The notes under the pieces were generated by a model, which saw only the letters and a program-made list of their open reading frames with translations, searched no databases and was not told where the DNA came from. Made by a program: the position numbers and the translations under genes. From contig NZ_FWXN01000007.1 of NCBI RefSeq assembly GCF_900176385.1, positions 62,001-126,000 on the forward strand: a DNA stretch of 64,000 bases, read 5' to 3'. Of the stretch, positions 55,946 through 64,000 are shown piece by piece. Each line of letters begins with the position of its first letter. Position 1 is the first letter of the stretch. This DNA is from Janibacter indicus (GTDB taxonomy: Bacteria; Actinomycetota; Actinomycetes; Actinomycetales; Dermatophilaceae).

Positions 55946-56412
55946 GCGCCGCTCTCCCGGCCCCGCCCGGCGAGGAAGGTGAGCAGGAGCTGGCGCTGCA
56001 GCTCGAACATCTCACGCTCCTCCTCGGGCTCGGCGTGGTCGTAGCCGAGCAGGTGGAGGATGCCGTGCGTGGTGAGCAGCAGCATCTCCTCGATCGGGGC
56101 GTGCCCGGCCGTCGCGGCCTGGCGTTCGGCGACCGAGGGGCACAGCACGATGTCTCCGAGGACGCCCTCGAGCGGGGCCTCCCCCTCGCGCCCCGGTCGC
56201 AGCTCGTCCATGGGGAAGCTCATGACGTCGGTCGGGCCGGCGAGGTCCATCCACTGCTCGTGCAGCACCGTCATCGTCGCCTCGTCGACGAAGCGGATGC
56301 ACAACTCTGCCTGCGGGTGCACGCGCATCTGCGCGAGCACGTAGCGGCTGATCTCGACGAACTCGGCCTCGTCGACGACGTGGTCGGTCTCGTTGAGCAC
56401 GTCGATGCTCAT
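55942..56412 (-). CDS. ybeY: endoribonuclease YbeY
   Basis: A 156-residue zinc RNase for 16S rRNA 3'-end maturation. The metal motif [21 protein letters not shown] is H-x3-H-x5-[22 protein letters not shown] and the LGDIVLCP strand are typical. ATGA overlaps on both sides. Confidence 0.96.
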
Positions 56413-57461
56413 CGGCCGGCTCCCTTCGTCGCGTCGTATCGGTCGTAGGCGCTCACGATCTCGCCGACGAGTCGGTGGCGCACCACGTCGGCGGCGTCGA
56501 GGTGGGCGAAGTGCACACCGTCGACGTCGGTGAGGATCCGCTGGACCACCTTGAGGCCGGACTCGATGCCGCCGGGCAGGTCGACCTGACTGGTGTCGCC
56601 GGTGACGACCATCTTGGAGCCGAAGCCCAGGCGGGTGAGGAACATCTTCATCTGCTCGGGCGAGGTGTTCTGCGCCTCGTCGAGGATGATGAAGGAGTCG
56701 TTGAGCGTGCGCCCGCGCATGAAGGCCAGGGGCGCGACCTCGATGGTGCCGGCGGCCATGAGCCGCGGGATCGACTCGGGGTCGATCATGTCGTGCAGCG
56801 CGTCGTAGAGCGGTCGCAGGTAGGGGTCGATCTTGTCGTTGAGCGTCCCGGGCAGGAAGCCGAGCTTTTCCCCCGCCTCGACGGCCGGGCGGGTGAGGAT
56901 GATCCGGTTGACCTGCTTGGCCTGCAGGGCGGCGACCGCCTTGGCCATCGCGAGGTAGGTCTTGCCGGTGCCGGCGGGCCCGATGCCGAAGACGACGGTG
57001 TTGTCGCCGATGGCGTCGACGTAGTGCTTCTGGCCGAGCGTCTTGGGGCGGATCGTGCGCCCGCGGTTGGAGACGATGTTGGTCGTCAGCACGTCGGCGG
57101 GGCGCTCGCGGGTCTGACCGCGCAGCATGGTGATCGAGCGCTCGACGGCATCCTTGTTGAGCGGCTGCCCGGCCTCGAGGATTTCGAGCAGCTCGTCGAG
57201 CAGCCGGTCGAGGACCTCGAGGTCGCCGGCCGGCCCGTGGAGACGGAACTCATTGCCTCGGACGAGGATCTCGGTGCGCGGGAAGGCCCTCTCCATGGTC
57301 CGCAGCAGCTCGTCGGTCGGGCCGAGCAGGCTGACCATCGGGATGTTGTCGGGCAGGACGATCGTCTGCTGGACCCGGGGCGCCGGGCCGGACGCGGCCG
57401 CCCGCGGGTCGTCGGAGATCGCGTCGAGGGCGCGCAGGTCGGGGTGGTCTGATGGAGGCAT
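56409..57461 (-). CDS. phoH: PhoH-like ATPase
   Basis: A 350-residue P-loop NTPase with Walker [19 protein letters not shown], Walker [25 protein letters not shown] and [10 protein letters not shown] (sensor). An N-terminal KH-like segment (residues about 50-90) is present. PhoH-YbeY pairs act in RNA processing. First gene of the phoH-ybeY-CBS-era operon, 13 bases after the membrane protein gene before it. Confidence 0.94.
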
Positions 57462-57474
57462 CGTGCTCCCGATT

Positions 57475-58227
57475 CTACGGGCGCGAGCGCGGTCCCACTC
57501 CCAGAGGCGGATCGGTGGTCGACCGCGGGGCCACGAGCGGGGGGTGGGCCACGCTCCACGTCGGGGTGATCGCGCGGTGGGCCAGGACGTCCTGGGCCAG
57601 ACCGGTCGCGGCCGTCAGGCCCTGCCCAAGCATCGCCTGCTCCAGCGCCGCGAGGAAGGCGCGGCGGTTGCGCGCCCCCAGCAGGTACCAGCCGAAGACC
57701 GATCGGCCGGGGTCCGGTGCTCCCGCCACGTTGGCCGACAGCATCGATCGCTGCCATCCGTTGACCACGACCATGGGCCCGGCGGTGCCGCGCGTCGCGC
57801 CCGCAGGAGCCGCCACATTCCGGGTGAGGAAGAGCGCTCGGGACACGTAGACCCGCCCCGGGTCGATGGTCTCCAGCGGGATCGCTGTCTGGCCCCGGAA
57901 GCCCAGGACCAGGGCCCGCTCGTGGACCCTGATGCGGTCCAACGCCCCGGCGACGACGAAGATCGCCGCAGCACCGAGGCCGATCGCCAGCGGGACCACC
58001 GCGATGGCGGGGTCGGGCGCGATCACGGCCGCGAGAACCGCGACGAGGACGAAGGGCAGGACGAGTGCCGTGAGGAAGCCCGCGGTGGGGCGGGCACGGA
58101 AGGTCGCCAGCTCGCGACCGGGGTCGGCCTGCGCCGCGGCGACGAGCTGCTCGAGGTGCGCCTGGGCCGCTGGGCTGCCGTCGTGGTGGAAGAGAGGTCG
58201 CACGTGGGGAGCAGCCGGTCCGGTCAC
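57475..58227 (-). CDS. two-helix membrane protein of the duplicated module (C2)
   Basis: A 250-residue protein with two adjacent membrane helices at about residues 50-70 and 76-98. The C-terminal half shows ETIDPGRVYVSRALFLTRN, MVVVNGWQRSML, FGWYLLGARNRRAFLAALEQAML, then GLAQDVLAHRA. It aligns with the C1 protein at 60858 (MDPGRMVWATSARAARSV, VWWVLGPRDVGGFVRDLEAAMA, LADHLTRHRA). GTG overlaps the B2 stop (GTGA). Function not recognised; a membrane partner of the WXG-type export substrate is a guess. Confidence 0.8.
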   Translation of the reverse strand: MTGPAAPHVRPLFHHDGSPAAQAHLEQLVAAAQADPGRELATFRARPTAGFLTALVLPFVLVAVLAAVIAPDPAIAVVPLAIGLGAAAIFVVAGALDRIRVHERALVLGFRGQTAIPLETIDPGRVYVSRALFLTRNVAAPAGATRGTAGPMVVVNGWQRSMLSANVAGAPDPGRSVFGWYLLGARNRRAFLAALEQAMLGQGLTAATGLAQDVLAHRAITPTWSVAHPPLVAPRSTTDPPLGVGPRSRP

Positions 58228-59006
58228 GACGCGGCGCCCTCGCTCCACTGCGTCCACAGGTCGATGACGGCCGACTGGGCCACGGGCGTGTAGGTCACGG
58301 AATCTGCCCCGGGCTCGGCCACGTAGAGCTCCGACGGAGAGGCGTGGACGACCTTGAGGTCACCCGCCTCGCCCAGCTGCCGCGCCAAGGTCGTCACGTG
58401 GGTGATCCCCGCGAGGAAGTCCAGCCGCTCACCACTCGCCAGGTCCGACTCCCCGACGGAGCGGGGCTCGCCACTCGAGGCAGAAGTCTCGGAGACCCCG
58501 AGAAAGCGCAGGAACTCGGCCATCTCGTCGGCATCGGACCGGGTCAGCACGAAGGCGTGGTACCCCTGCGGGCTCACGACCTCTCGCAGGAGCACGCCGT
58601 CGCCGGCGGGCCGATAGCTCAGCCACGACTGGCCGTCCTCGGTCATCCGCTGCGCGACGAGCGAGGCGTCGACGCGTCGCAGGTGCAGAGCGGCCAGGAG
58701 GGACTCGGCCACCTCGTACTCGTTGTCGCCGTCCTCGCGCTCGGCCACGAGCGCAAAAGCGTCGAAGGTCGTCAGGGTCCGCAGAGCGGCCGACTGGGCG
58801 AGCTGCTTGTCCTCGGGCGACAGGCCGCGGTACCACTCACCGAGAGGGCCCGCGAGCTGTGCATCGCCGACGAGCGCCACCATGGCCTCGTCGGGCAGCG
58901 CACCGAGGGTGAGTCGCGCGTCGCCGCCCAGCGCCGCGAGCGCCTGCGCGGCTGCCTGCTCCGCTGCGGGTGAGTCGATGATTCCGGGTGTCTTGAGCTC
59001 AGGCAC
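58224..59006 (-). CDS. soluble protein of the duplicated module (B2)
   Basis: A 260-residue soluble protein. Shared with B1 (61610) and B0 (63541): a Pro/Asp-rich start, LGxWYRGLSPEDKQ/VGQWYPGLGEHPQ, an AALRTL/ATALRSL helix, LREVVSPQGYHAFVL/LREVVTAQGFHAFDL, an FLAxxxxVTxLA strand, and a terminal helix with two Trp (LWTQWSEG/YRAWRGAW). Begins with GTG right after the TAA of the WXG gene. Could be an export chaperone in the style of EspG, or an immunity protein; not proven. Confidence 0.8.
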   Translation of the reverse strand: MPELKTPGIIDSPAAEQAAAQALAALGGDARLTLGALPDEAMVALVGDAQLAGPLGEWYRGLSPEDKQLAQSAALRTLTTFDAFALVAEREDGDNEYEVAESLLAALHLRRVDASLVAQRMTEDGQSWLSYRPAGDGVLLREVVSPQGYHAFVLTRSDADEMAEFLRFLGVSETSASSGEPRSVGESDLASGERLDFLAGITHVTTLARQLGEAGDLKVVHASPSELYVAEPGADSVTYTPVAQSAVIDLWTQWSEGAAS

Positions 59007-60014
59007 TTAGAACAGGCCTCCGATGGCGCCGACAGGGTCGGACAGGACACTACCAACGCCGTCGGCAACTGCCTTGGCTCCGTCGGCCACCGCACCGGCG
59101 CCGTCCGCGATCGCCCCACCGACGGCCTTGGCGCCGTCGACGATGGCGCCGCCTGCGTCGGAGAGCGCCCCCGAGATGGCATCCCAGTTCTGGTAGATCG
59201 CGATGCCCGCAGCGGCGATGCCGGCCACGGCCATGACGCCGATCCCCACCGGGCCCAGCGCGACACCGAAGGCCGCCGCCGTGGCCAGGCCACCGCTCAG
59301 GGCTCCCAGACCGCCGCCCGCTGCCCTCAGGTAGTCACCCTCGCGGATGCCCTGCACGAGGTCGATGCCGCCGGTGATGACGCCCAGCGGCCCGAGGACC
59401 TTGCCGAGGGTCGGCCCGGTCGCCCGCAGCAGGCCACCCAGCTTGGAGCTGATCTTGGCCGGGATCGTGCCGCGGAAGAGATCGTCCATCTGACTCGCCG
59501 TCGCACCGAGCATGCTCTGCAGGCGAGCCTCCGGCATCAGTGCCTGGTACATCTTGAAGGTGTTGCCGGTGAGGGCGGCGAGCAGGCGCGGGCCCTTGGT
59601 CACCAGTGCTGCGATACCCGACCCCAGCGGGCCGAGCGCGGCCAGGTCGTCGAACCCGAAGCCGTCGTCCCCTCCGCCGCCTCCGGGGGCACCCGACCCT
59701 CCCGGGCCACCGGGCTGGCCCCCGCCACCGGGTGCACCTCCCCCGCCCTGAGAGGCCTGGTCCTGGTCGGACGCCTGCTGCTGCAGGCCCTTGCCCAGCG
59801 CCTGCACCGTCTGGCTGGCCGCGGCGAGGGACTTCTCCGCACCTCCCCACGAGCCGCTGAAGCTCTCGAGATCCGGACCCTCCCACGCACCCGACAGGAC
59901 GGACAGCTGACCGCGCCCCTGGCTGCCGATGTTGCTCAGCGTCTCGCCGTTGCGCAGCAGATCGCTCGCGATCTGCCGGACGCGCTCGACGTCCATGCCC
60001 TCCTGCACGCTCAT
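59007..60014 (-). CDS. WXG-type protein with hydrophobic C-terminus (A2)
   Basis: A 335-residue protein. N-terminal domain (residues 1-90) with GMDVERVRQIASDLLRNG and W44-E-G46, the same frame as in the nuclease toxin and A1. Then a Gly/Pro linker (about 92-115), a helical middle, a strongly hydrophobic glycine-zipper pair (about 237-280, then IYQNWDAISGAL) and Ala/Gly/Asp-rich repeats (AVGGAIADGAGAVADGAKAV). Looks like a type VII export substrate with a membrane-active C-terminus. First gene of a coupled A-B-C set. Confidence 0.8.
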   Translation of the reverse strand: MSVQEGMDVERVRQIASDLLRNGETLSNIGSQGRGQLSVLSGAWEGPDLESFSGSWGGAEKSLAAASQTVQALGKGLQQQASDQDQASQGGGGAPGGGGQPGGPGGSGAPGGGGGDDGFGFDDLAALGPLGSGIAALVTKGPRLLAALTGNTFKMYQALMPEARLQSMLGATASQMDDLFRGTIPAKISSKLGGLLRATGPTLGKVLGPLGVITGGIDLVQGIREGDYLRAAGGGLGALSGGLATAAAFGVALGPVGIGVMAVAGIAAAGIAIYQNWDAISGALSDAGGAIVDGAKAVGGAIADGAGAVADGAKAVADGVGSVLSDPVGAIGGLF

Positions 60015-60097
60015 CCGTGGCCCTCCTGCTCGATGGTCCTGTCTCGACCCCCGAGCCTAGGCACCATTCGTGGATCGTGACATGGGGAGCACTCCCC

Positions 60098-60838
60098 TCA
60101 GCGCCACCGATCCCGTGCGCTGAGCACGGAGACGGCCGCCGGACCGGCCGTCGAGGCCCGCAGCACCTGGGTGCCGAGGCGGACCGGGACACCGCCGGCG
60201 GCCACGAAGCGCTCCAGCTCCTGCGGCGAGATCCCACCCTCGGGACCGACGACCAGGAGGACCTCCCCTTCGGTGGGCAGGTCGGCGGTGGCCAGCGGGG
60301 TCGTGGCGTCCTCGTGGAGGACGAAGGGGGTCGCCCCGGCGAACCGCTCGGCGAGCCCCTGGCTCGTCACCAGCTCGTCCAGCCGCGGCCACCGACCGCG
60401 CCGGGACTGCTTGGCGGCGCGCTCGATCACGTTGGCCCACTTGCGCAGGCCCTTGTCGACCTTCGGTCCCTTCCACCGCACGATCGAGCGGTCGGCCTGC
60501 CAGGGGACGACCCCGTCGACGCCGAGCTCGGTGGCCGCCTCGACGGCGTCCTCGTCGCGGCCGTCCTTGGACAGTGCCTGCACGAGCGTCAGGCGAAGGG
60601 AGGGCTCCTGCTCGTCGGCGCGCTGCCGCACCCGCAGCCGCACGAGGTCGCGGCCGACCTCGGCCGCCTCGGTGAGCACACGCGCGCCCTGCCCGTCGGC
60701 GACGAGCACCTCCTCCCCCACCTCGAGCCGCACGACGGTGGCGGCGTGGTGCGCCTCGGGCCCGACGAGGTCGACGGCGTCGTCGACCCCGAGCCCGTCG
60801 AGGTCACCGGGGTCGACGAGGAAGAGCGGCGCGGTCAT
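60098..60838 (-). CDS. rsmE: 16S rRNA (uracil-1498-N3)-methyltransferase
   Basis: A 246-residue SPOUT-knot methyltransferase. PUA-like start APLFLVDPGD, then VGPEAHHAATVVRLEVGEEVLVADGQG, KGPKVDKGLRKWANVIERAAKQSRR, and the knot VLLVVGPEGGISPQELERF with RASTAG near the end. ATG at 60838; the longer frame to 60910 is not supported. It sits between two copies of the A-B-C module, in the same direction. Confidence 0.95.
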   Translation of the reverse strand: MTAPLFLVDPGDLDGLGVDDAVDLVGPEAHHAATVVRLEVGEEVLVADGQGARVLTEAAEVGRDLVRLRVRQRADEQEPSLRLTLVQALSKDGRDEDAVEAATELGVDGVVPWQADRSIVRWKGPKVDKGLRKWANVIERAAKQSRRGRWPRLDELVTSQGLAERFAGATPFVLHEDATTPLATADLPTEGEVLLVVGPEGGISPQELERFVAAGGVPVRLGTQVLRASTAGPAAVSVLSARDRWR

Positions 60839-60857
60839 GCGCCCATCCTGCCTCGCG

Positions 60858-61613
60858 TCAACCCCGCCAGAGCGGCGGGTCGTACGGCGCGCGGCGCGGG
60901 TAAGCCTCACGTCCGGTCGGGACGTCGGCGCGGTGCCGCGTCAGGTGGTCGGCGAGACCCCGCACGGGGTAGCCGTCGGCGGCCATCGCGGCCTCCAGAT
61001 CACGGACGAAGCCGCCGACGTCGCGCGGCCCGAGCACCCACCAGACGAAGGGGGTGTCCAGCCGGGGAGCGGTGGAGAGCGGGTCGTACTTGGTGCCCAG
61101 CCCCCGCCAGTCCTCGACCGCGTCAGGGCCGTCGGTGCCGTTGAGCAGGAGGCACTCCCCGCCGGCGACCCGACGGCGCCGGTTGAGCGTCACGACCGAC
61201 CGAGCGGCGCGCGCCGAGGTCGCCCACACCATGCGGCCGGGGTCCATCGTCGCGTAGGGCACGGGGCGCGAGGCGACGAGCAGGCCGTGCTCACGCACCT
61301 CGATGGTCCGGCTGCCGCGGGTGGCGAGCATCGCCGGGAGCAGGAGCGCCGCGACGACCACGCCGACGCCGAGGGGGCAGAGCACCGCGACCAGAGGAAT
61401 GGCCCCGACCGCGGCCAGCACGCCCATGACGACGACCAGTCCCACGAGGAGCAGCGCCACGAGTCCGAGGAGGACCGCGACGGGGCGGGAGGCCGCGGGC
61501 ACCGTGTGGCGCGTCCGGACCTGGCCGAGGTGCTCGGGTCCGAGGCGCAGCCAGGCGTCGAGGTCCGCCGCCGAGCGGGCGGAACCGTCGAGGCGGACGA
61601 AGCCGCGGGTCAC
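60858..61613 (-). CDS. two-helix membrane protein of the duplicated module (C1)
   Basis: A 251-residue paralogue of C2 (57475). Two helices at about residues 45-68 and 72-95, then VREHGLLVASRPVPYATMDPGRMVW, LLLNGTDGP, FVWWVLGPRDVGGFVRDLEAAMA and LADHLTRHRA. GTG at 61613 overlaps the B1 stop (GTGA). It is followed 19 bases later by rsmE. Unrecognised family. Confidence 0.8.
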   Translation of the reverse strand: MTRGFVRLDGSARSAADLDAWLRLGPEHLGQVRTRHTVPAASRPVAVLLGLVALLLVGLVVVMGVLAAVGAIPLVAVLCPLGVGVVVAALLLPAMLATRGSRTIEVREHGLLVASRPVPYATMDPGRMVWATSARAARSVVTLNRRRRVAGGECLLLNGTDGPDAVEDWRGLGTKYDPLSTAPRLDTPFVWWVLGPRDVGGFVRDLEAAMAADGYPVRGLADHLTRHRADVPTGREAYPRRAPYDPPLWRG

Positions 61614-62437
61614 CAGGCGCCGCGCCAGGCCCGGTAGCGCTCGAGGACGTCCTGCGGCGCGGTGCCGGCGTAGACGAGCCCGTCGCCCTCGACGGTGCCG
61701 ACGGTCGTCCCGCCCTGCTCGTCCACGGCGACGACGCACGCCTCGGGCTCCGCGTCCTCCCCCGGCGGCACGAGGGCCAGCTGGGTGACGTTTCGCTGGC
61801 GGGCGAGGAAGGTCATGACCTCGCCCGGCGCCGGCGCCCCGCCACCCGGCTGGCGCAGCCCGTCGACGGACGACGCGGTGGCGTGGTCGAGCAGGCCGAG
61901 GATGCCGCGGAAGAAGAGCTCCTCGTCGTCGTCGAGCCGCACGAGGTCGAAGGCGTGGAAGCCCTGGGCGGTGACGACCTCGCGCAGCCAGAGGTCACCG
62001 GCCCTCCGCAGGACGTACCAGGACGGCCCCTGCCGGGTCATCGACTGCGCCGAGAGCCCGACCGGCTCGAAGCGCATCCGCAGCAGGGCCATGAGGCGAC
62101 GGGAGACGCGGGCGCTGAGGTCGCCCTCGGCGTCCTGGGTGACGATGACCTCCTCGCGGGAGGTCAGCGAGCGCAGGGCCGTGGCGCGGCTGACCCGCTG
62201 GGGGTGCTCACCGAGCCCCGGGTACCACTGCCCCACCGGCTCGACGGCCTCGATGCCACCCATGAGGACGACGAGCTCCTCGTCGGTCAGCGAGCCGAGG
62301 TGGCTGGTGTCGGACGACTTCGCGTACTCGGCCAGAACCTCCTCGACGGCCTGAGCCGCCTCATCGGAGGCGATGATCGGTCGCAGGTCCGGCAGGTCGT
62401 CGGCAGCGGGGGGCGTGTCGGTCGGCGTCGTCGTCAT
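61610..62437 (-). CDS. soluble protein of the duplicated module (B1)
   Basis: A 275-residue paralogue of B2 and B0: VGQWYPGLGEHPQRVSRATALRSL, SWYVLRRAGDLWLREVVTAQGFHAFDLVRLDDDEE, and a terminal VYAGTAPQDVLERYRAWRGAW. An N-terminal acidic, Pro/Thr-rich lead of about 20 residues. It starts 9 bases after the A1 stop. No signal or membrane segments. Confidence 0.8.
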   Translation of the reverse strand: MTTTPTDTPPAADDLPDLRPIIASDEAAQAVEEVLAEYAKSSDTSHLGSLTDEELVVLMGGIEAVEPVGQWYPGLGEHPQRVSRATALRSLTSREEVIVTQDAEGDLSARVSRRLMALLRMRFEPVGLSAQSMTRQGPSWYVLRRAGDLWLREVVTAQGFHAFDLVRLDDDEELFFRGILGLLDHATASSVDGLRQPGGGAPAPGEVMTFLARQRNVTQLALVPPGEDAEPEACVVAVDEQGGTTVGTVEGDGLVYAGTAPQDVLERYRAWRGAW

Positions 62438-62446
62438 GGGTCAACC

Positions 62447-63544
62447 TCACCACAGTCGGGGCATCGGGATGCCCGGGAAGGACGGCTTGGGCAGGCCGGG
62501 CAGGCTCGGCAGACTCGGGAAGGTCGGCGTCGGGATCCCCGGCAGGTTGGGGATGGGCAGCTGCGGGACCGTCGGTGTGGGCGCGCCCGGCCAGTCCGGT
62601 AGCCCGGGGACGGGGATCGTCGGCGGCGGGAACTGCGGCAGGGGCAGCGGCAACCCGGGCAGCGGGCTGTTGGGGTTGAGCGGGCCACCGATGAGCCCGT
62701 TGTCCCAGGCCCACTTCGCCGCGGCGTCGATCTCGTCGTCGAACTCGCGGTAGATGCCGATGCCGATCGAGATCCCACCGAAGACGAGCGCCAACCCCCC
62801 GAGCACGAGCCCGGCCGGCGCCCCGAGGATCGTGCCGGTCGCAAAGAGGGCCGCGATGCCCAGGCCACCGGCGATCGTGCCGGTGAGCCCCTGGAAGAAC
62901 TGCAGCACCGAGTCCTTGGAGAAGCCCTCGGTGAACCAGCGGTAGATCGACTCGCCCATGTCCCACAGCCCGAGGATCGCCCCGAGGAAGGGGGTGACCT
63001 TGCCGAGGAGCTTGAGCGGAAGGGAGAGCCACTTGAGCCACTTGAGGTTCTTCAGCACCTGGAAGGCCTCGTCGGCCCAGGCGAGGGCATCGGCGAGGAG
63101 GGCCGGGATCGAGTAGGCGAAGCTGCGCAGGAAGTCCCACGCCCCCTTGAGCAGGTCGCCGATGACACCGAAGATGTCGGGGAAGGACGGCAGCTTCGGG
63201 AGGCCGGGCAAGCCCGGGAAGTCCGGGAGGCCCGGCAGCTTGGGCAGCTGTGGGCCCCCGGGACCGATGCCCGAGCCCTCGGAGGCACGGTCCTGGTCCT
63301 CGGCCTGGCGCGCGAGCTCCTCCCCCATGTCCCGCACCAGCTGCTCGGCGCGATCGAGCTGCGGCCGGGCACTGCCCCACTCGCGCGCGAACTGCTCGAC
63401 GTCGGGCCCCTGCCAGACGTCCTCGAGCACGCTCATCATCGCGCTGCCGCGCGCGGCGACGTCGCCGATCACGGAGCCCTGCGACCTGAGCTGGTCGGCG
63501 ATCGACCGGGCCCTGCCGGTCTCCATCCCCTCTGCGACGCTCAC
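62447..63544 (-). CDS. WXG-type protein with proline-rich blocks (A1)
   Basis: A 365-residue paralogue of A2. N-terminal GMETGRARSIADQLRSQG with W44-Q-G46; then a GLP/PKLP-rich block (residues about 96-122), a helical middle, a hydrophobic glycine-zipper pair (about 222-262, then IYREFDDEIDAAAKWAWDNG), and a long Pro-rich tail built of GLP, PTPT, PSLP-like units. GTG 63544 overlaps the B0 stop (GTGA). Export substrate by analogy; role unknown. Confidence 0.8.
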   Translation of the reverse strand: MSVAEGMETGRARSIADQLRSQGSVIGDVAARGSAMMSVLEDVWQGPDVEQFAREWGSARPQLDRAEQLVRDMGEELARQAEDQDRASEGSGIGPGGPQLPKLPGLPDFPGLPGLPKLPSFPDIFGVIGDLLKGAWDFLRSFAYSIPALLADALAWADEAFQVLKNLKWLKWLSLPLKLLGKVTPFLGAILGLWDMGESIYRWFTEGFSKDSVLQFFQGLTGTIAGGLGIAALFATGTILGAPAGLVLGGLALVFGGISIGIGIYREFDDEIDAAAKWAWDNGLIGGPLNPNSPLPGLPLPLPQFPPPTIPVPGLPDWPGAPTPTVPQLPIPNLPGIPTPTFPSLPSLPGLPKPSFPGIPMPRLW

Positions 63545-64000
63545 TGGTCGGTCCTCCACGTGGTCCAGACGGCCCGCAGTTCGTCGGTGCTCGCCCCGGT
63601 GAAGTGCACCGAGCCGTCCTCCGCCGGGCGGCCGAGGGTCAGCGCACCATCGGCACCCACCGCCACGACGAGCCCGGTGGTCTCCCCTTCGGCACTGGTG
63701 AGCGTCACCTGCGCGACGTGCTCCTGCGCAGCGAGGACCTCGCGCACCGCGGCCGGGGCTTCGCCGTCGGCCGGCTGGACGAGGTCGACATCGCTCGGGG
63801 CGGCCCCGGCGCCCACACCCAGCGCGGCCGCGAAGGTGTTGATCTCCGTGTCGTCGAGCTCGAGCAGGTCGAAGGAGTGGAAGCCGTCCGCGCTCACGAG
63901 CTCACGCATCCACCCTGCTGAACCCTGGCGCAGGACGTAGAAGGCGGGGCCGGAGCCGACGACGGACTCGACGACGAGGCGAGCCGGCTCGAGGCGCAGG
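63541..64000 (-). CDS. soluble protein of the duplicated module (B0), C-terminal part
   Basis: The reading frame is open to the right edge. Visible are LRLEPARLVVESVVGSGPAFYVLRQG, MRELVSADGFHSFDLLELDDTE and a terminal FTGASTDELRAVWTTWRTDQ, aligning with B1 and B2. Stop TGA overlaps the A1 GTG start. It shows that the array of modules continues beyond 64000. Confidence 0.8.
   Translation of the reverse strand, partial: LRLEPARLVVESVVGSGPAFYVLRQGSAGWMRELVSADGFHSFDLLELDDTEINTFAAALGVGAGAAPSDVDLVQPADGEAPAAVREVLAAQEHVAQVTLTSAEGETTGLVVAVGADGALTLGRPAEDGSVHFTGASTDELRAVWTTWRTDQ

Follow-up and report, generated by a model that had tools for sequence, protein, structure and literature searches.

Gene modules flanking rsmE in Janibacter indicus: candidate type VII secretion effectors with a predicted EspG-fold partner and a candidate membrane immunity protein

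What do two similar sets of genes do on either side of a core gene, rsmE, in Janibacter indicus? We analyzed 64,000 nucleotides of this genome (assembly GCF_900176385.1, contig NZ_FWXN01000007.1, positions 62,001 to 126,000), referred to here as the window; coordinates are those of the window unless a locus is named. A first-pass annotation, made from the sequence alone, had described two sets of three genes encoding a WXG-type protein (A), a soluble partner (B) and a membrane protein (C), and its interpretation was partly supported by our results. We now think it somewhat probable that A acts on membranes as an antibacterial effector, that B, with its EspG fold, is the chaperone of A, and that C is the membrane protein conferring immunity to it. 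Each A-B set, with or without C, would then be a type VII secretion effector module. Numbers preceded by L, G and C are our labels for loci, genomes and contigs, respectively, and G000 is the genome that contains the window.

The six genes were found where they had been placed, on the minus strand and on either side of rsmE: A1 (62447..63544), B1 (61610..62437) and C1 (60858..61613) on one side and A2 (59007..60014), B2 (58224..59006) and C2 (57475..58227) on the other. Both sets are present, but the extent of the array is larger. Immediately upstream of A1 is a third pair, A0-B0, which has no C of its own. The end of the window cuts B0, leaving its 3' part (63541..64000, minus strand); the entire gene is at L009:1542-2351, and its partner A0, past the window edge, is at L009:2366-3322. 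A fourth pair, A4-B4, also without C, is on another contig of the same genome (L010, G000:C28, 8840-11977). There are 4-base overlaps between B1 and C1, B2 and C2, and B0 and A1. The claim that all three members pair off by sequence held for B (B1 is 42% identical to B0 and 35% to B2, or 32% to B2 in another alignment) and for C (C1/C2 27-32%, varying with the alignment). For A it held mainly for the N-terminal ~95 residues (A1/A2 44%, A0/A1 52%); the copies are divergent behind the WXG-type N-terminus.

We found that B is predicted to be an EspG-fold protein. A structure of the B2 copy itself was predicted from five sequences (predicted local distance difference test, pLDDT, 82.3; predicted template modeling score, pTM, 0.82) and compared to the PDB. 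All 12 matches at E<=0.001 were EspG1, EspG3 or EspG5, the chaperones of ESX-1, ESX-3 and ESX-5 (best E 1.4e-5), at 9-14% identity and with TM-scores of 0.39-0.51 by query length. The fold comparison rests on the model of B2, and B1 is assigned to the family by its identity to B2. No membrane segment was predicted in 9 of 10 B copies. The fold supports the earlier suggestion of a chaperone-like partner. B resembles the EspG chaperones (PF14011) in its predicted fold, over ~260 residues, and in that its gene adjoins a WXG-type substrate gene. In contrast to them, B has no detectable Pfam similarity and is encoded 3' of the substrate gene, away from the secretion-ATPase locus, and the product of the neighboring substrate gene has a hydrophobic hairpin in most cases. 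EsaE (TsbG) and TscG, from systems of Bacillota, are likewise described, in the available passages of PMC11217815, as having a predicted EspG fold at very low or no recognizable sequence identity; the likeness is one of description. Sequence searches gave no name to B or C among the window proteins (Pfam and NCBIfam), and the B profile had no match to PDB sequences at E<=10. Because neither B nor C has a convincing Pfam match, genomes probably carry both without annotation.

The N-terminus of A shares ancestry with that of a protein that carries a toxin domain. A0 scored above the WXG100 (PF06013) cut-off of 27.3 bits (34.3 bits), and A2 (25.8 or 22.2) and A1 (16.9) scored below it. By BLAST, A2, A1 and A0 were 41%, 42% and 30% identical, respectively, to the WXG domain of an RNase-toxin protein of the same genome, one of two further proteins there that begin with this domain. 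This protein has a C-terminal CdiA-CT RNase A domain (RNAse_A_bac, E 3e-26). An EspG-family gene is in front of its gene (PF14011, 23.8 bits, cut-off 27) and a CdiI_2 gene is behind it (E 2.1e-12); together these make a clear effector-immunity set (L014, G000:C20, 7059-10826). Since the N-terminus of A is found elsewhere in the genome on a CdiA-type RNase A toxin beside CdiI, A resembles an effector of type VII secretion. The sets are alike in the homologous WXG domain and the EspG-family neighbor, and differ in that L014 has an enzyme toxin domain, a CdiI-type immunity protein, and an EspG gene upstream rather than downstream. The genome also has a candidate core for a type VII secretion system: an FHA-FtsK ATPase of 1470 amino acids followed by two WXG100-type genes (L016, G000:C8, 2-8506). 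The shared WXG domain and this ATPase, which scores below the cut-off for EccC, both support the annotation's proposal of type VII-linked export or a self/nonself system.

Is A necessarily antibacterial? The first alternative that we weighed makes A a PPE-like protein, secreted or at the surface, that has no antibacterial activity and functions in nutrient uptake, at the surface, or in signaling, with B as its EspG chaperone and C as a membrane anchor or a regulator. Three points fit this alternative: partners of PE/PPE proteins are known to have the EspG fold (from PDB titles), A0 is simply proline-rich behind its WXG domain, and the tail domain of A is conserved rather than hypervariable. 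However, the same N-terminal domain bears an RNase toxin with CdiI adjoining in this very genome, and the patchy gain and loss of the genes and the lone C genes described below resemble effector-immunity evolution. We think the PPE-like alternative unlikely.

The tails of A1 and A2 are consistent with a membrane-acting effector. A1 has a glycine-rich hydrophobic hairpin (residues ~224-264) followed by a proline-rich tail. A2 has a similar hairpin (residues ~235-274), and its tail ends in GGLF. The A2-type tail has the glycine-rich hydrophobic hairpin, an amphipathic end and, in many members, an Asn-Trp-Asp or Asn-Arg-Glu-like motif, and it recurs across genera behind differing N-termini. We detected hydrophobic segments, by hydropathy, in the tail of the open reading frame upstream of B at 25 of 30 loci; no convincing upstream frame was scored for L051 and L054, and an A-type frame is visible further upstream at L054. 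Among 20 A members compared to Pfam, 12 matched WXG100, one WXG100_2 and one AbiEi_4, and none matched an LXG domain at E<=0.01.

We also found that A and B occur together in other genomes. We searched 297 genomes of the order and found matches to the B profile in 28, to the A-tail profile in 38, and to C in 14. Few candidates were scored per genome (8 for B, 9 for C, 13 for the A tail), so absences are soft. The loci recruited by the A tail numbered 30 (from 49 matches, those that became loci), and in 25 of them a B match begins 0-414 nucleotides behind the tail; the tail alignment had been built from B-linked proteins, which biases this count. Three of the 25 were outside the matches of the B search. 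That is, among eight inspected loci outside the earlier B matches, B was present in three (L190, L193, L201). B was absent from five of the 30 (L191, L195, L198, L203, which is at a contig end, and L204), and L195 and L204 have weak matches to an EspG model. Searches from either side thus recovered the A-B neighborhood in other genomes, and it exceeds chance. C followed B in 7 of 30 B loci at E<=1.1e-15 and in 11 at E<=1e-3; three of the seven match by construction, because the profile includes the C of L018/L060, L059/L063 and L035/L064. The 30 B loci omit three in which a short, partial B-like protein adjoins dxr (L021, L022 and L023), as well as L030, L031 and L058, which duplicate loci of J. 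indicus or G037.

Within complete modules the three families co-vary. A and B distances correlate (r=0.77, 12 pairs, p 5e-5), as do A and C distances (r=0.82, 7 pairs, p 0.003). The A1-like, A2-like and A4-like proteins each pair with their own clade of B, with an exception in G354; the truncated A fragment of G344 C11 was left out of this clade comparison. The first-pass annotation had named independent occurrence of the three families as an argument against a single module. The A2-type tail and B mostly stayed together, and C was found on its own. The result was mixed for the N-terminus of A, also found at the start of proteins whose EspG-like neighbors are of another kind than B, and for B-like proteins, some of which are beside substrates other than A.

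The constancy of B next to A raises a second alternative: that B is chiefly a cytoplasmic antidote of A, using the EspG fold for immunity much as GyrI-like ExiB is directed against EsxX, with C accessory or acting outside. This overlaps with our preferred explanation and does not exclude it. B accompanies the A2-type tail at most loci whereas C varies, and in the available passages of PMC12744356 the staphylococcal exiAB genes are downstream of all esxX genes analyzed and exiCD is often orphan. On the other side, A0 lacks a hairpin and yet has a B as well. The EspG proteins known so far act as chaperones for PE/PPE substrates, which also counts against a role chiefly in immunity. We consider it possible that B is mainly an antidote, though on the doubtful side.

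If B stays with A, what does C do? We examined the slot in which the modules reside. In the J. indicus contig, continued past the end of the window, the gene order is hrcA-dnaJ-A0-B0-A1-B1-C1-rsmE-A2-B2-C2-phoH-ybeY. The core gene rsmE (60098..60838, minus strand; 16S rRNA m3U1498 methyltransferase) separates the modules and phoH (56409..57461, minus strand), also a core gene, closes the variable slot. C1 has a soluble domain at its C-terminus; the model of C2 shows two long hydrophobic helices, and its sequence contains a DPGR motif. C1 and C2 are the candidate immunity proteins for A1 and A2, respectively. Syntenic loci were found in J. massiliensis (G049, classified outside the genus of the window genome), J. 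anophelis (L061) and a Janibacter metagenome-assembled genome (L062).

Among 16 genomes of the genus, C was present in 12 and B in 6: five had both, seven had only C (a fragment in one, G331), one had only B, and three had neither. Full-length C without detectable B was therefore present in 6 of the 16, including G353, which is 79% complete (G349 is 90% complete); A was sought directly in the retrieved slots. The order rsmE-A-B-C-phoH was found in G348, G354 and J. massiliensis, dnaJ-C-rsmE-C-A-B-phoH in G343, and dnaJ-A-B-rsmE-phoH in G349, which has another A-B pair elsewhere in its genome. G347 has a C on each side of rsmE. In G344, dnaJ-C is found where a contig ends, rsmE-C-phoH on a second contig, and A-B-C elsewhere. 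A lone C lies between rsmE and phoH in G342, G345, G346, G352 and G353, and A, B and C are all absent from the slot in G038, G350 and G351. In J. anophelis and the metagenome-assembled genome, the lone C starts within the final 4 bases of rsmE. We also observed decayed fragments of A and B in G344 (L106, G344:C11, 5436-6327), which has full-length C genes elsewhere.

In the pairs that we measured, purifying selection acts on the lone C genes. For six pairs of solitary C at the rsmE-phoH site, the ratio of nonsynonymous to synonymous substitution rates (dN/dS) was 0.24, 0.29, 0.32, 0.39, 0.42 and 0.51, compared to 0.08-0.11 for dnaJ and 0.21-0.32 for rsmE in the same pairs. The values for C thus equal or exceed those for rsmE but stay below 1. 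At rsmE, the C genes of G344 and G347 have a dS of 0.99, higher than the flanking genes, which suggests that C at this site was replaced by a different version. We propose that modules are gained and lost at a hot spot, the dnaJ-rsmE-phoH interval, and that C may be retained there after loss of A and B.

These findings bear on a third alternative, close to the membrane adaptor that the annotation had suggested for C. Here C, as a receptor or adaptor in the membrane, would bring the A-B complex to the secretion machine, and lone C genes would be relics. The 4-base overlap with B and the co-variation with A and B in complete modules fit such a role. However, there are the six genomes with full-length C and no detectable B, the purifying selection on solitary copies, and several A-B pairs that have no C. 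We find C to be less likely an adaptor than a membrane immunity protein because it stands alone in genomes without detectable B, and we regard the adaptor as quite improbable.

Based on these results, our preferred explanation, effector, chaperone and immunity protein, would work as follows. B, in the cytosol and translationally linked to its neighbors, would keep A soluble and deliver it to the ATPase for secretion. By masking the hairpin, B may also protect the producer from inside. The WXG-type N-terminus would target A for export. The hairpin of exported A1 or A2 would insert in the membrane of a neighboring cell, probably depolarizing it, unless the matching C is present; C, an integral membrane protein, would shield the cell from A coming from outside.

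Several results weigh against this explanation. A0 has no hydrophobic hairpin, and C is missing from A4-B4, the pair in G037 and two pairs in G349. The annotation had described a glycine-zipper end on the A proteins. A1 and A2 do have the glycine-rich hydrophobic hairpin, but GxxxG occurred 163 times in 34 A-type tails compared to 175.7 +/- 10.1 in composition-preserving shuffles. Since this spacing is no commoner than composition gives, we rejected the glycine zipper as a supported motif and limit the claim to a conserved glycine-rich hydrophobic domain. For B, Pfam gave no EspG match at E<=0.1 and nothing convincing among 39 members (best DUF7162, 0.013), and an hhalign comparison of 39 B with 22 EspG (PF14011) sequences was weak (probability 28.6 over 28 columns). 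The C model (pLDDT 80.7, pTM 0.79) had no PDB match at E<=0.001 and no secure fold. Of the 19 A-tail matches that were placed by coordinates and not inspected, 8 are beside a B match and 11 are not. The co-occurrence of B and C, both found in 8 of the 297 genomes (Fisher p 4.7e-6; 2.8e-5 without J. indicus itself), speaks for the explanation, but the C profile was seeded partly from C genes beside B, which favors such a result. With the EccC model, which has a cut-off of 509 bits, the FHA-FtsK ATPase scored only 329. Because that model matches nearly all genomes of the order (294 of 297 at E<=0.001, with 74 above the cut-off and J. indicus not among them), a test of co-occurrence between secretion system and module was non-discriminating and was dropped. 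Finally, the dnaJ-adjacent C genes of G344 and G347 are nearly identical (dS 0.009, compared to 0.24-0.39 for dnaJ, rsmE and phoH of the same genomes). With clean assemblies this would reflect a recent exchange and count in favor of the explanation. However, the copy in G344 is at the end of its contig, assembly cross-contamination is possible, and the dN/dS of this pair is 1.46, from very few changes.

The nearest worked-out case for the A-B-C module appears to be EsxX of Staphylococcus aureus. According to the available passages of PMC12744356, the EsxX toxin has a glycine zipper, ExiB is GyrI-like, exiAB is 3' of every esxX gene analyzed, and genomes that lack esxX frequently carry the genes for the membrane proteins ExiCD as orphans. 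As far as the passages of PMC12744356 and PMC10434224 go, EsxX-ExiAB-ExiCD and TelE-TipE of Streptococcus gallolyticus resemble our module in combining a type VII substrate domain with a C-terminal hydrophobic glycine-rich region, in a soluble partner that stays with the substrate, and, for EsxX, in a membrane partner that is also found as orphans. B is fixed with A and C is free, which is the same division as between soluble ExiAB and membrane ExiCD. The differences, on the same passages, are an LXG rather than a WXG-type N-terminus and Bacillota rather than actinobacterial hosts (EsxX and TelE); a soluble partner with a GyrI-like DUF5085 fold rather than an EspG fold, and two membrane proteins with six helices rather than one C with about two hydrophobic helices (EsxX); and a glycine zipper that lacks statistical support in A tails. 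TspA-TsaI of S. aureus, as described in PMC12744356 passages, also pairs a type VII toxin that acts on membranes with an immunity protein in the membrane; here too the likeness is by description.

We tentatively raise a more specific reading: that an EspG-fold protein doubles as secretion chaperone and cytoplasmic antidote, that C is a new family of membrane immunity proteins found as orphans at the dnaJ-rsmE-phoH hot spot, and that the module is an actinobacterial counterpart of EsxX-ExiAB-ExiCD. Such a module would mean that Actinomycetota use type VII secretion to discriminate kin. We did not meet such double use in the literature matches and the passages available from them. Nor was there a paper on an actinobacterial A-B-C module among the matches listed, which do not cover many subscription papers and bioRxiv preprints. 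Judging by titles and abstract openings, the antibacterial type VII papers among the matches listed concern Bacillota. The locus is a non-mycobacterial actinobacterial case with candidate cognate pairs and with natural strains that have only the presumed immunity gene. By connecting a probable membrane toxin with an EspG fold, it is also relevant to the question of what chaperones of the EspG type shield.

Other observations concern relatives and neighbors of these genes. The second protein that shares the A N-terminal domain (L011, G000:C11, 7417-10299) has a weak PGAP1-like match (E 0.0043). Its gene is overlapped by an EspG-like gene whose product is 36% identical to that of the EspG-family gene of L014. 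A small gene after it presumably encodes a lipoprotein, and we take the upstream genes to be for pilus assembly. L016 also contains genes that we take to be DUF58-like and transglutaminase-like. On each side of A4-B4 there are divergent proteins with, by eye, one hydrophobic segment; one of these proteins has a weak PEGA match.

We considered from sequence and model whether C is a PH-domain protein; the structural matches were weak PH/PTB-like ones and there was no significant fold match. Pfam gave weak matches for seven C members (best DUF6585, 0.0054). Where C is absent or weak (L040, L041, L055, L056), RDD-like membrane proteins or small proteins that we take to be PH-like accompany A-B, and these may be alternative membrane partners; the RDD-like label comes from a weak Pfam match for L040 only. 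Outside the genus, C is present without B in G240, near a gene that is presumably integrase-like. In G160 a short open reading frame joins, by eye, a B-like to a C-like piece in front of a full-length C, as would be expected if A and B decay first. Lastly, four genera of the family (L021, L022, L023, L057) encode a short B-like protein between what we take to be dxr and a large WXG-like protein.

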